Of a DNA stretch of 64,000 nt, positions 28,802-32,549 are shown one piece after another. The DNA is from Psychromicrobium lacuslunae (GTDB lineage Bacteria > Actinomycetota > Actinomycetes > Actinomycetales > Micrococcaceae): contig NZ_CP011005.1 in the NCBI RefSeq assembly GCF_000950575.1, positions 620,001 through 684,000 of the forward strand, in the 5' to 3' direction. Both the position numbers and the translations under genes were made by a program. The notes under the pieces were generated by a model. It did no database searches and was not told the DNA's origin. It saw only the letters and a program-made list of their open reading frames with translations. Each line of letters opens with the position of its first letter. Position 1 is the stretch's first letter.

Positions 28802-31800
28802 GTGAAAAGTCTGCAGCGAACCCTGATCGCCAACGGTTTTGCCGATTTGGAGAAAAGTAGCCGCTTTTTGGCTGCCCCCGAACTGCAGGGTATTGACCAA
28901 GAGCGGCTCTTTGCGGGACTGAGCTTCGCCGCCGACCCTGATCTGGCTTTGCAATCGTTAGTCCGGCTACTGGCAGCCGCAGAGCCGCTGCGTTCCGAAG
29001 TGCATCGCCTAGTGGCGCAAGGCGGCGAGGCGAGCGAGCCGATGTTCCGCTTACTCGGCGCCTCCGAGGCGCTCGCTGACTTCCTGATCCGTCATCCCGA
29101 ACACGCCGAATTACTGCGCACGCCGGTGACACCGGAACCCCATGGAGTGCCCGCCTGGCAACTGCGGAGCTCGCTGCTGAAGAGCGTCGGAGCCGACCCC
29201 GAGGCGCACCGGCCGATTGCGAGCCGACCACCGCTCGAGGCGGTTCCGGCGCTACGTACCCAGTACCGTCGGCATCTCGCGGAGCTCGCAATCAGGGATT
29301 TATCGGCTGCCTCGCCAACCGATGTGATGCCGATTGTCGGTGCCGAACTTGCCGATCTGGCCGGTGCCGCGCTGGATGCCGCGCTCGCCGTGGCTCGGGC
29401 TGAGCTGAGTGCCGAATCCTCTGCCTGGACCGCAGAACAGGTCAATGCTGTTGACCTTGCGGTGATCGGAATGGGTAAATGTGGGGCCCGGGAACTGAAC
29501 TATATTTCGGATGTCGACGTGATCTACCTGATTGAGGCGGTGGAACTCGACGAAGTGGTGGCGATGACGATTGGCGAGCAATTGGCACTTGCCATTTCGC
29601 GGATTATTAACGCTCCGGCGCGAGAACCAGGGCTCTGGGAGGTCGACACCAACCTACGCCCCGAAGGCAAAGACGGGCCCTTGGTGCGGACCCTTGAGTC
29701 ACATCTTGAGTATTATCGGCGCTGGGCTTCGGGCTGGGAATTTCAAGCCCTGCTCAAGGCGCGGACGGTGGCGGGAAGCCGCCCGCTGGGCGAGCGTTAT
29801 CAGCTCGCGGTGGCGCCGATGGTGTGGAGTTCCTCGGAACGTGAGGGCTTCGTGGAATCGGTGCAGGCGATGCGCCGTCGGGTCAGTGATCACATTCCCC
29901 CCGGTGAGCAGGAGCGCCAAATCAAGCTGGGGGTCGGCGGTTTGCGTGATGTCGAATTCACCGTGCAGCTGCTGCAATTGGTGCACGGCAAGACCGATCA
30001 GCACTTGCATCGCCGCGATACCACTGGCGCCATCGAAGCACTATCGCATGCAGGCTACATTGGCCGTAGTGACGCCGCCGAACTCAATGCCGCCTACCGA
30101 TACCTCAGAGTGCTCGAACATCGGATTCAGCTCGTACAGTTGCGTCGCACACACCTGATGCCGCTCGCCGCCCCTGCGCTCAAGGCTCTGGCCAGGTCGT
30201 CAAGGGGATCCTTTGAACGCGGTCGGCCTAGCGCCGATACTTTGCTGAGTGAATGGCAGGGCGTGAAGCGCAGGGTACGGGCCCTGCACGAGCGTATTTT
30301 CTACCGCCCGCTGTTGAACACCGCTGCCCATCTGAGCGCTGCGGAGGCTGCGCTCAGCCCGCAGGCAGCTCAAGCACGGCTGGCCGCCCTGGGCTACCAA
30401 GACGGCGCCGGTGCGATGCGACATATTGAGGCACTGACCGCCGGGGTTTCTCGCCGGGCGGCGCTGCAACGGCAGCTGCTGCCGGTACTGCTAGGCTGGC
30501 TGGCCGATGGTGTTGACCCGGATGGCGGGCTGCTCGCCTTCCGCCGGCTCAGTGAATCGCTGGGCACTACGCACTGGTACTTGGCGATGTTGCGGGACTC
30601 GCAAGCCGCAGCGGAGCGGCTCTGCCATGTGCTCTCCAGCTCGCGATTGATCGCGGATTTGTTGGAAGTCTCTCCCGAGGAAACCGCCTGGTTGGGTTCC
30701 GATAAGGAGTTGCAACCACTCAGTTTTGAGGCTCAGTGGCAGGAAATTCAGTCTAAGATGTCGCGGCACCCGTTGCCTGCTGAGTCGATCCGGCTGATCC
30801 GGTTGATCCGTCGCCGCGAAATCTTGCGGATTGCGATTGCCGATGGTGCTGGGCTGCTTGACCAGGGACAGATCGGCCAGGCGCTCGCCGACGTCGACCG
30901 GGCCGCCGTGCTCGGCGCCCTACACGTGGCCGAGGGGGCGGTGGGGGAGTTGAAGACCGAAATCCTGGTGGTCGCGATGGGGCGCCAGGGTGGCCGGGAG
31001 ATTGGCTATGGCTCGGACGCTGACGTGATGTACGTGCACCGAGCCTTGCCGGGAGCTACGGAAGCCGAAGCCCAGGAGCAAGCCCTCGCTATTGTTGCGC
31101 AGATTTCCAGCCTGCTCACCCAGCCGTTGAAGCCAGCCGTGCTCGCCGAACGGGTGCTCCAGATCGATGCTGATCTGCGTCCAGAAGGTAAGAACGGTGC
31201 GATGGTGAGGTCGCTCGACTCGTTCCGCGAGTACTATCAGCGTTGGTCGCTGATCTGGGAGGCTCAGGCGTTGCTCAGGGCGCGGCCGATGGCCGGTTCC
31301 GATAAGCTCGCTGAAGATTTCCTCAGCTTGATAGATCCGATCCGTTACCCGGCGCAACTGAGTGAGCAGGATCGTCGGGAAGTTCGCCGCATCAAAGCAC
31401 GCGTTGAGTCGGAACGTCTGCCCAGGGGAGCAGACCCCGCCCGTCATCTTAAATTGGGTCGCGGCGGGCTGAGCGATGTGGAGTGGCTGGTCCAATTGAA
31501 GCAGCTAGAACACGCCGGGCAGTACCCTCAGCTGCGCACCAGTTCGACGCTGCCAGCCTTGGCCGCGCTTGCCGATCTCGGCCTGGTGGCTGCCGACGAC
31601 GCTGAGTTGCTGGGCAGCGCTTGGCAGCTGGCCAGCCGGATTCGTTCGGCAAATGTGCTCTGGAGCGGCAAAGCCTCCGATCTGTTGCCGTCCTCGCGGC
31701 GCGATCTGGAAGCGGTGGCACGCTGGTGCGGTTATCCGGCGGGACACGGCGGCGCGCTGGAGGAAGATTATTTGCGACTCACCAGACAGGCCCGGATCGT

Positions 31801-31828
31801 TTTTGAGCGGTACTTCTACGCCAGTTAG
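28802..31828 (+). CDS. glnE: Bifunctional glutamine synthetase adenylyltransferase/deadenylyltransferase GlnE
   Basis: GlnE attaches and removes AMP on a tyrosine of GlnA1 according to nitrogen status. It is 1008 residues with two nucleotidyltransferase halves: the first around residues 225-245 (GARELNYISDVDVIYL), the second around 733-750 (GREIGYGSDADVMYV). Each is followed by an RPEGKDG/RPEGKNG block and a helical segment (LKLGVGGLRDVEF, LKLGRGGLSDVEW). Both pairs of catalytic aspartates are intact. The start is GTG. An inverted repeat shortly after the stop may terminate the glnA2-glnE transcript. Confidence 0.95.
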   Translation: MKSLQRTLIANGFADLEKSSRFLAAPELQGIDQERLFAGLSFAADPDLALQSLVRLLAAAEPLRSEVHRLVAQGGEASEPMFRLLGASEALADFLIRHPEHAELLRTPVTPEPHGVPAWQLRSSLLKSVGADPEAHRPIASRPPLEAVPALRTQYRRHLAELAIRDLSAASPTDVMPIVGAELADLAGAALDAALAVARAELSAESSAWTAEQVNAVDLAVIGMGKCGARELNYISDVDVIYLIEAVELDEVVAMTIGEQLALAISRIINAPAREPGLWEVDTNLRPEGKDGPLVRTLESHLEYYRRWASGWEFQALLKARTVAGSRPLGERYQLAVAPMVWSSSEREGFVESVQAMRRRVSDHIPPGEQERQIKLGVGGLRDVEFTVQLLQLVHGKTDQHLHRRDTTGAIEALSHAGYIGRSDAAELNAAYRYLRVLEHRIQLVQLRRTHLMPLAAPALKALARSSRGSFERGRPSADTLLSEWQGVKRRVRALHERIFYRPLLNTAAHLSAAEAALSPQAAQARLAALGYQDGAGAMRHIEALTAGVSRRAALQRQLLPVLLGWLADGVDPDGGLLAFRRLSESLGTTHWYLAMLRDSQAAAERLCHVLSSSRLIADLLEVSPEETAWLGSDKELQPLSFEAQWQEIQSKMSRHPLPAESIRLIRLIRRREILRIAIADGAGLLDQGQIGQALADVDRAAVLGALHVAEGAVGELKTEILVVAMGRQGGREIGYGSDADVMYVHRALPGATEAEAQEQALAIVAQISSLLTQPLKPAVLAERVLQIDADLRPEGKNGAMVRSLDSFREYYQRWSLIWEAQALLRARPMAGSDKLAEDFLSLIDPIRYPAQLSEQDRREVRRIKARVESERLPRGADPARHLKLGRGGLSDVEWLVQLKQLEHAGQYPQLRTSSTLPALAALADLGLVAADDAELLGSAWQLASRIRSANVLWSGKASDLLPSSRRDLEAVARWCGYPAGHGGALEEDYLRLTRQARIVFERYFYAS

Positions 31829-31844
31829 TCTGCATCCCGCGATT

Positions 31845-31892
31845 GGCGTCAACCTTAGTTGACGCCTCTTGTTTCGTCAACTAAGGTTGACG
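31845..31892. promoter_or_regulatory. Mirrored pair of palindromes between glnE and a small HTH gene
   Basis: Bases 31847-31864 (CGTCAACCTTAGTTGACG) and 31875-31892 (CGTCAACTAAGGTTGACG) are exact reverse complements of each other, and each is itself a 7-4-7 palindrome; the first extends to 9-4-9 (31845-31866). The DNA could be a double operator for the HTH protein that follows. The RNA could fold as two small hairpins or one 18-bp stem with a 10-base loop, the first with a T-rich tail that would end the glnE message. Confidence 0.65.
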
Positions 31893-31908
31893 TATGGAGG
31901 TGGAGCGG

Positions 31909-32109
31909 ATGAAAACACTAATCGGCGATATGGATGCTGATAACCCTAGTGAGGCCCTTTTTGCCTTGGCCGAGCTGCAGAAGGAAGTCGGTCGTACTGA
32001 GGCTGCCCTGGTGCGTCGAGCCAGGCTGGCCGGGTTCTCCTGGGAGATGATCGCCGTTTGTCTGGGAGTCAGCAAACAGGCGGTGCACAAAAAGTTCGGC
32101 AAAGCCTAG
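31909..32109 (+). CDS. Small helix-turn-helix DNA-binding protein
   Basis: ATG 31909 has GGAGGTGGAG just upstream; the ATG at 31894 would sit one base from the palindrome with no ribosome site. The 66-residue product ends in a helix-turn-helix: LVRRARLAGFSWEMIAVCLGVSKQAVHKKFGK (about residues 33-65). An acidic helical N-terminus precedes it. This HTH type is frequent in actinobacteria, often next to Clp-N domain proteins, but no such partner is here; the next gene is a VOC protein. The double palindrome directly upstream makes autoregulation likely. Confidence 0.8.
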   Translation: MKTLIGDMDADNPSEALFALAELQKEVGRTEAALVRRARLAGFSWEMIAVCLGVSKQAVHKKFGKA

Positions 32110-32141: not shown

Positions 32142-32549
32142 ATGTCACACAAATTATTTGTTAATATTCCGGTTGCTAACCTCGATGCCTCGGTGGAATT
32201 CTTCACCGGTCTTGGGTTCAGCTTCAATCCACAATTTACCGATGAGAACGCCACCTGCATGCTGGTGGGCGAGGACGCCTATTTCATGCTGCTGGTCCGA
32301 GAGTATTTTCAGAGCTTCACCGCCAAGCCGGTCGGTGACCCGAAGGCCGCTGATCAAGCTATCTACGCCCTCGGCGTCGATAGCCGCGAGGACGTGGATA
32401 CCTTCGTGGATAAGGCACTAGCTAGCGGTGCAACGGTGGCCGGTGAGACCATGGACCAAGGTTTCATGTACCAGCGCAGTTTCTTCGATCTAGACGGTCA
32501 TCACTGGGAAGTTTTCTTCATGGACATGAGCCAAATGGGCGAAGCTTAA
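32142..32549 (+). CDS. VOC (glyoxalase/bleomycin-resistance fold) protein
   Basis: This 135-residue protein has two beta-alpha-beta-beta-beta units: KLFVNIPVANLDASVEFFTGLGFSF at the start, and DVDTFVDKALASGATVAGETMDQGFMYQRSFFDLDGHHWEVFFMDM at the end. The ending with DLDGHHWEVFFMD is typical of the PhnB/glyoxalase-like subgroup. Substrate unknown. Its last four bases overlap the convergent SRPBCC gene, leaving no room for a terminator between them. Confidence 0.85.
   Translation: MSHKLFVNIPVANLDASVEFFTGLGFSFNPQFTDENATCMLVGEDAYFMLLVREYFQSFTAKPVGDPKAADQAIYALGVDSREDVDTFVDKALASGATVAGETMDQGFMYQRSFFDLDGHHWEVFFMDMSQMGEA

Follow-up and report, generated by a model that had tools for sequence, protein, structure and literature searches.

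Among described systems, the closest to the locus analysed here is mycobacterial ClpC2 (Rv2667), which represses its own gene via CGTCAAC-n5-GTTGACG sites positioned over a putative −35 and −10, a self-repression that is relieved by cyclomarin A (Taylor et al. 2023, PMC10030653). In the part of that paper considered here, DNA binding is assigned to the C-terminal domain of ClpC2, with R185A/R189A weakening binding, and mutation of R57 is associated with the larger derepression (4.6-fold vs 2.0-fold). The terms "HTH" and "helix-turn-helix" are absent from the text examined of PMC10030653, and likewise from PMC12913811; an HTH region in ClpC2, detected by HHpred, is noted in the consulted part of Han et al. 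2026 (PMC13284704). Our literature search found no description of actinobacterial gene pairs made up of a small HTH gene and a Clp_N gene, nor of a small HTH/operator pair outside ClpC2. The locus examined here lies in a 64,000-nucleotide stretch of the Psychromicrobium lacuslunae genome (NZ_CP011005.1, positions 620,001 to 684,000), hereafter the window.

A palindrome pair and promoter-like elements ahead of a small HTH gene

Direct inspection of the sequence confirmed two 18-base palindromes which an earlier note had described as mirror images. CGTCAACCTTAGTTGACG at 31847-31864 and CGTCAACTAAGGTTGACG at 31875-31892 each consist of 7-bp arms around a 4-nt centre, are exact reverse complements of one another, and are separated by 10 nt. 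These are referred to below as candidate operator sites 1 and 2 (both on the + strand, and both kept upstream of orthologues). When the motif GTCAAC-N4-GTTGAC was allowed up to 3 mismatches, 5 matches were found in the window against 1.48 expected, 4 of which were sites 1 and 2, each on both strands. The exact form, GTCAACNNNNGTTGAC (GTCAAC-N4-GTTGAC), is present in two places only in the 3.6-Mb genome, namely site 1 and site 2.

On the + strand, a −35 element (TTGACG, 31859-31864) is predicted inside site 1, in its right half, and 17 bp from it a −10 element (TAAGGT, of the form TANNNT, 31882-31887) is predicted at the centre of site 2. Among the 67 two-site loci of the 83 examined (see below), TANNNT was conserved in site 2 in 66 and was found in site 1 in 21; the spacer between −35 and −10 was 17 or 18 in 64, and 59 of the 66 TANNNT-bearing loci have their first start codon 6 or 7 nt past the −10. 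Where a single site was left, six of seven loci retained TTG at a 17–18-bp spacer though the first palindrome had gone. The centre of site 2 is TA-led and asymmetric in the two-site loci and that of site 1 is freer, both of which would be explained by overlap with a promoter, as would the pitch of about 28 bp. On this geometry, the mRNA is predicted to begin at ATG 31894 and so to be leaderless. A simple sigma-70 scan of the window found no promoter at the operator, TAAGGT being a weak match to TATAAT. Because the pair is an exact mirror, the same −35/−10 arrangement can also be read on the minus strand, antisense to the end of glnE, with TAAGGT at 31852-31857 and its −35 at 31875-31880. A divergent promoter is accordingly possible in the window genome by sequence symmetry, and it is not a conserved trait, as exact mirrors were found in 3 of 67 loci.

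The candidate small HTH repressor gene occupies 31894-32109 (+ strand) and encodes 71 aa if it is leaderless from ATG 31894. The 66-residue protein of the earlier note, starting at ATG 31909 (+ strand) behind GGAGG (31896-31900), stays as the alternative; in L081, L082, L086 and L087 the upstream ATG is absent and a 31909-type start is the sole option. An AlphaFold2 model of the protein comprised four helices (mean pLDDT 93.5), of which the helix at residues 61-68 was taken as the recognition helix. The corresponding stretch, SKQAVHKKF, is encoded by codons 60-68 (32071-32097, + strand). Residues Q62, A63, V64 and H65 were invariant in 36 family sequences, as was R44 of the window protein.

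No Pfam or NCBIfam family reached its cut-off for the small HTH protein. Assignment as an ECF sigma factor or sigma-70 region 4 was considered and rejected, since PF07638 (17.5 bits vs 21.1) and PF08281 (12.7 vs 25.7) both fell below the gathering score, and no Pfam match to a Clp_N domain was seen in the 71-aa protein. Foldseek searches with the model gave no match below E 1. With VIA-align, the best rows were Fis (Z 5.5, rmsd 5.1, 68 aligned), a dimeric HTH fold to which no sequence relation was found; this likeness, with Z below 8, may reflect only the common arrangement of a helical bundle. Neither a ClpC2 nor a RelI structure was among the VIA-align matches listed.

Conservation of the double site and its pairing with the HTH family

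To examine the palindromes across species, 83 loci were assembled from the window, the best 80 of 265 tblastn relatives and 2 further congeners. Sites with at most 2 mismatches were sought up to 130 bp from the HTH gene, with windows elsewhere in the same loci serving as controls. At least one site was found in 74 of the 83 loci and two sites in 67, compared with 2 and 0, respectively, of 1440 control windows; these counts do not represent independent events, because many of the loci are close relatives. The motif search proposed in the earlier note therefore found the motif upstream of orthologues rather than missing from them, and its suggestion that the small HTH gene is autoregulated through two operator sites is strongly supported, with binding as a prediction. 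No site was present within 130 bp in nine loci (L106, L109, L111-L114, L116, L121 and L122), nor was an operator farther upstream found in these within 1.5 kb. By name, seven of the nine are Nonomuraea or Thermoactinospora and the others Nonomuraea.

The pitch between sites in the 67 two-site loci was 28 bp in 44, 29 in 16, 27 in 6 and 26 in 1. An exact mirror was seen in three of them, the window, L043 and L105. The mirrored symmetry emphasised in the earlier note is real in the window, but what is conserved is a pair of GTCAAC-N4-GTTGAC sites at a pitch of about 28 bp rather than the exact mirror.

A search with a DNA-only pattern of two exact sites 10–14 nt apart was carried out against 394 genomes of the class. 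The double site was recovered in 53 of these, and the backwards-pattern control gave 0. On inspection of all 53, a small HTH gene of the same family adjoined the double site in 43 (L174 and L175 more weakly), and in 30 of those 43 a Clp_N gene then followed (by Pfam on examples). In other cases the HTH gene was followed by an ABC exporter (L125 by Pfam, L126 by sequence similarity) or by a beta-lactamase-family protein (L135 and L137 by Pfam, L136 by sequence similarity). No adjoining HTH was found in the other 10 double-site loci; in six of these an ABC-exporter-like gene comes next (by Pfam in L167, by eye in the others), L173 precedes a Clp_N-like gene (by eye) and L166 an alpha/beta hydrolase (Pfam), and L164 and L165 fall outside all three cases. 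Within the genus, exactly two exact sites were present in 5 of 7 genomes, with all 10 sites no more than 50 bp from the HTH gene. A genus member without the HTH gene (G001) had zero exact sites, and another (G005; locus L021) had a divergent HTH gene followed by Clp_N and kept only a variant mirrored site. In two congeners (L022 and L023), a 211-aa protein was noted that joins a related HTH to a long C-terminal part and has no operator upstream; it may be the DUF3887 fusion type to which the consulted part of PMC13284704 refers.

Related sites were also observed in viral or phage-like settings. The phage-like viral contig L301 (290-620) carries the same double site with a small HTH gene of the family behind it, ahead of structural genes, and a coding tandem repeat in this contig contains five further in-phase sites (2393-2516). 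Viral contigs L298 (1427-1592) and L300 (6673-6838) contain arrays in which GTCAACTATAGTTGAC-type sites recur every 30 bp; there, no HTH of the small-HTH family was found in the stretch examined. In the Micrococcaceae loci L031, L036 and L041 (around 1501), single exact sites stand beside phage-like genes, for example cytosine methylase (by eye).

Residue 66 of the recognition helix was found to vary with position 6 of the half-site. With K or R at residue 66, GTCAAC accounted for 171 of 196 and 75 of 76 half-sites (L043-L122, from the best 80 of 265). Family f11, taken as Mycobacteriaceae because of its ClpC2 and related proteins, showed GTCAAC in 33 of 52 half-sites for small K66 proteins and in 48 of 48 for ClpC2; for Q66 proteins of this family, GTCAAC was found in 88 of 232, with GTCAAG or GTCAGG in 55 of 232. 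The latter two were never seen with K66 or R66 in these protein-found sets. The difference between K66 and Q66 within the family gave p 0.001 with phylogeny ignored. This covariation supports the HTH as the DNA reader.

Operator, terminator, RNA switch or antitoxin control

The conserved sites, a layout like that of a promoter and the tight association with the small HTH family all point to one reading, namely that the palindrome pair is very probably a double operator placed on the promoter of the small HTH gene, whose product would be an autorepressor. It is a variant of the ClpC2 kind, in which binding and repression are predicted. Each GTCAAC-N4-GTTGAC palindrome would be bound by the small HTH protein as a dimer, and with site 1 over the −35 and site 2 over the −10, occupancy would shut out RNA polymerase. 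Expression of the HTH gene, along with whatever transcription runs on into the VOC gene, would then stay at a low, self-limited level; a leaderless start and an inducing signal are further presumed parts of the model.

Two of the rival explanations concern RNA. The upstream neighbour, glnE (28802-31828, + strand; NF010707, 1326.7 bits; PF03710), lies outside the conserved unit, and directly past its stop, site 1 offers a 9-bp stem, a 4-nt loop and a T-rich tail (31845-31876, + strand), so that it could be an intrinsic terminator of glnE whose operator look is secondary. This is unlikely, because a T-run (5 or more T among the 8 nt past the stem) was found in 1 of 67 two-site loci, the window alone, and because the double site persists in congeners that have other genes than glnE upstream (L017, L019 and L020; labels for those genes, e.g. 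GNAT, were given by eye) and across the class. Eight of the 67 loci have a site-1 stem extended by 4 or more pairs, and in these too the T-run is absent. The terminator raised in the earlier note may hence be a local peculiarity of the window genome, and its conserved role is not borne out. Its other RNA proposal was a transcript that can switch from a fold with two small hairpins to one with a single 18-bp stem. The + strand does fold well (−45.2 kcal/mol, z −5.5), yet palindromic operators do so by construction; centre tetramers were complementary at 1.31 of 4 positions vs 1.08 in permutations (p 0.0075, 54 unique pairs, phylogeny ignored), a small excess that may be phylogeny. Against such a switch, the HTH mRNA would be without both sites because its predicted start falls after them, the mirror is exact in only the three loci named above, and both bases for pairing with the TA of site 2 were likewise present in 3 of 67. 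An RNA switch is thus very improbable and went unsupported. As a separate observation, site 1 in three Arthrobacter-type loci (L045, L046 and L051) lies within a much longer hairpin with 10–13 extra pairs, perhaps an overlap of terminator and operator.

The other two rivals accept an operator and differ in what it serves. If the protein also governed a wider regulon in the window genome, then glnA2-glnE, the VOC gene or distant genes would be expected targets. Double sites in other lineages precede ABC exporters with no adjacent HTH (L167 and similar), which makes action in trans plausible in the family, and the VOC (glyoxalase/Ble-like) gene lies only 32 bp downstream of the HTH gene (32142-32549, + strand; PF22677, PF00903). 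In this genome, however, there are only two exact sites; at up to 2 mismatches, 113 matches were counted vs 122 for the backwards-pattern control, and four other one-mismatch sites (L003-L006) had no convincing gene-start context. A wider regulon is on this evidence improbable, and for the suggested control of glnA2-glnE no evidence was found. An effect on the VOC gene fared somewhat differently. No + strand terminator was found between the two genes, and they are possibly co-transcribed, but VOC is not a conserved downstream partner, being absent from that position in other genus members examined. In L082, L086, L087 and L088, a VOC homologue (57–60% identity) sits between glnE and the HTH gene and hence not downstream. 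The last rival casts the small HTH protein as an antitoxin that pairs with a toxin, as in RelS-RelI, and controls its own expression through the operator. RelI (Rv2664; PDB 9SDC) does give a partial sequence match in its HTH region, over 38 residues (27-64) of the window protein (E 2e-4), and in the consulted part of PMC13284704 short actinobacterial homologues are grouped, most of them beside RelS toxins. In RelS-RelI, though, a RelS toxin gene is adjacent upstream, whereas the neighbours here, judged by gene identity, are glnE upstream and VOC downstream, neither of them RelS-like; moreover, that same source describes relSI as being without upstream inverted repeats and without evidence of DNA binding, unlike the window with its two sites. 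A toxin-antitoxin role is very unlikely, and the autorepressor double operator is the reading carried forward.

Relationship to ClpC2 and to HTH–Clp_N gene pairs

A profile (A1) built from the small HTHs detected ClpC2 in 12 of 12 family f11 genomes. The N terminus of one such protein, L215, matches the N-terminal ClpC2 crystal chain (8ADA, Rv2667), and by alignment with L215 the recognition helix of ClpC2, TKQAAQKRF, was placed at residues 73-81. The 8ADA chain ends at residue 72, and the other crystallised construct is reported to begin at 94 (PMC10030653, in the part consulted), so this helix is in neither crystal. ClpC2 R57 aligns with R44 of the window protein. Because proteins that have no C-terminal domain share the half-site, the comparison suggests that ClpC2 may read DNA with its own HTH. 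The weakened binding of R185A/R189A counts against an N-terminal HTH as the DNA reader of ClpC2.

Taken more broadly, it is probable that these proteins form a modular actinobacterial family. A stand-alone HTH of 65–80 aa, in effect the N-terminal part of ClpC2, would read GTCAAC on its own promoter, and would have as its partner a Clp_N drug sponge encoded separately, ABC exporters or beta-lactamase-like enzymes, or else be fused to Clp_N as ClpC2. If this is true, the ClpC2 operator would be read by the N-terminal HTH, the C-terminal domain not being the main reader that it was proposed to be in 2023, and half-site spacing (n4 vs n5) together with residue 66 would keep paralogues in the same genome apart. 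The HTH gene of the window genome stands nearly alone, while relatives often have a Clp_N, ABC-exporter or beta-lactamase-like gene next to it; in terms of a modular family, the partner would have been lost in the window lineage, with the switch surviving almost alone.

With this interpretation, an odd symmetry becomes a predicted, testable regulatory module common to many actinobacteria, and a different DNA-reading domain is suggested for ClpC2, itself a natural factor in tolerance to an antituberculosis peptide that targets ClpC1. Residue 66 and the n4/n5 spacing offer a clean in vitro specificity test, and the Clp_N, ABC-exporter and beta-lactamase-like genes are likely members of one stress- or drug-response operon type.

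Compared with ClpC2, the window has the same half-site, two sites over a putative −35 and −10, a predicted leaderless start just past site 2 (by sequence geometry), and a related helical N-terminal part that contains an HTH. It differs in that its protein is without the cyclomarin-binding Clp_N domain and in that its half-sites are 4 nt apart (n4) rather than 5 nt (n5); two exact n5 sites were found for ClpC2 in 12 of 12 family f11 genomes, where the small HTH paralogues use n4. The gene pairs of small HTH and Clp_N (30 of 53 double-site loci) share with the window the same small HTH, the n4 double operator and the promoter layout. The difference from these lies in the neighbour, as no Clp_N gene adjoins the window HTH, whereas its congener G005 (L021) has the HTH gene and then Clp_N.
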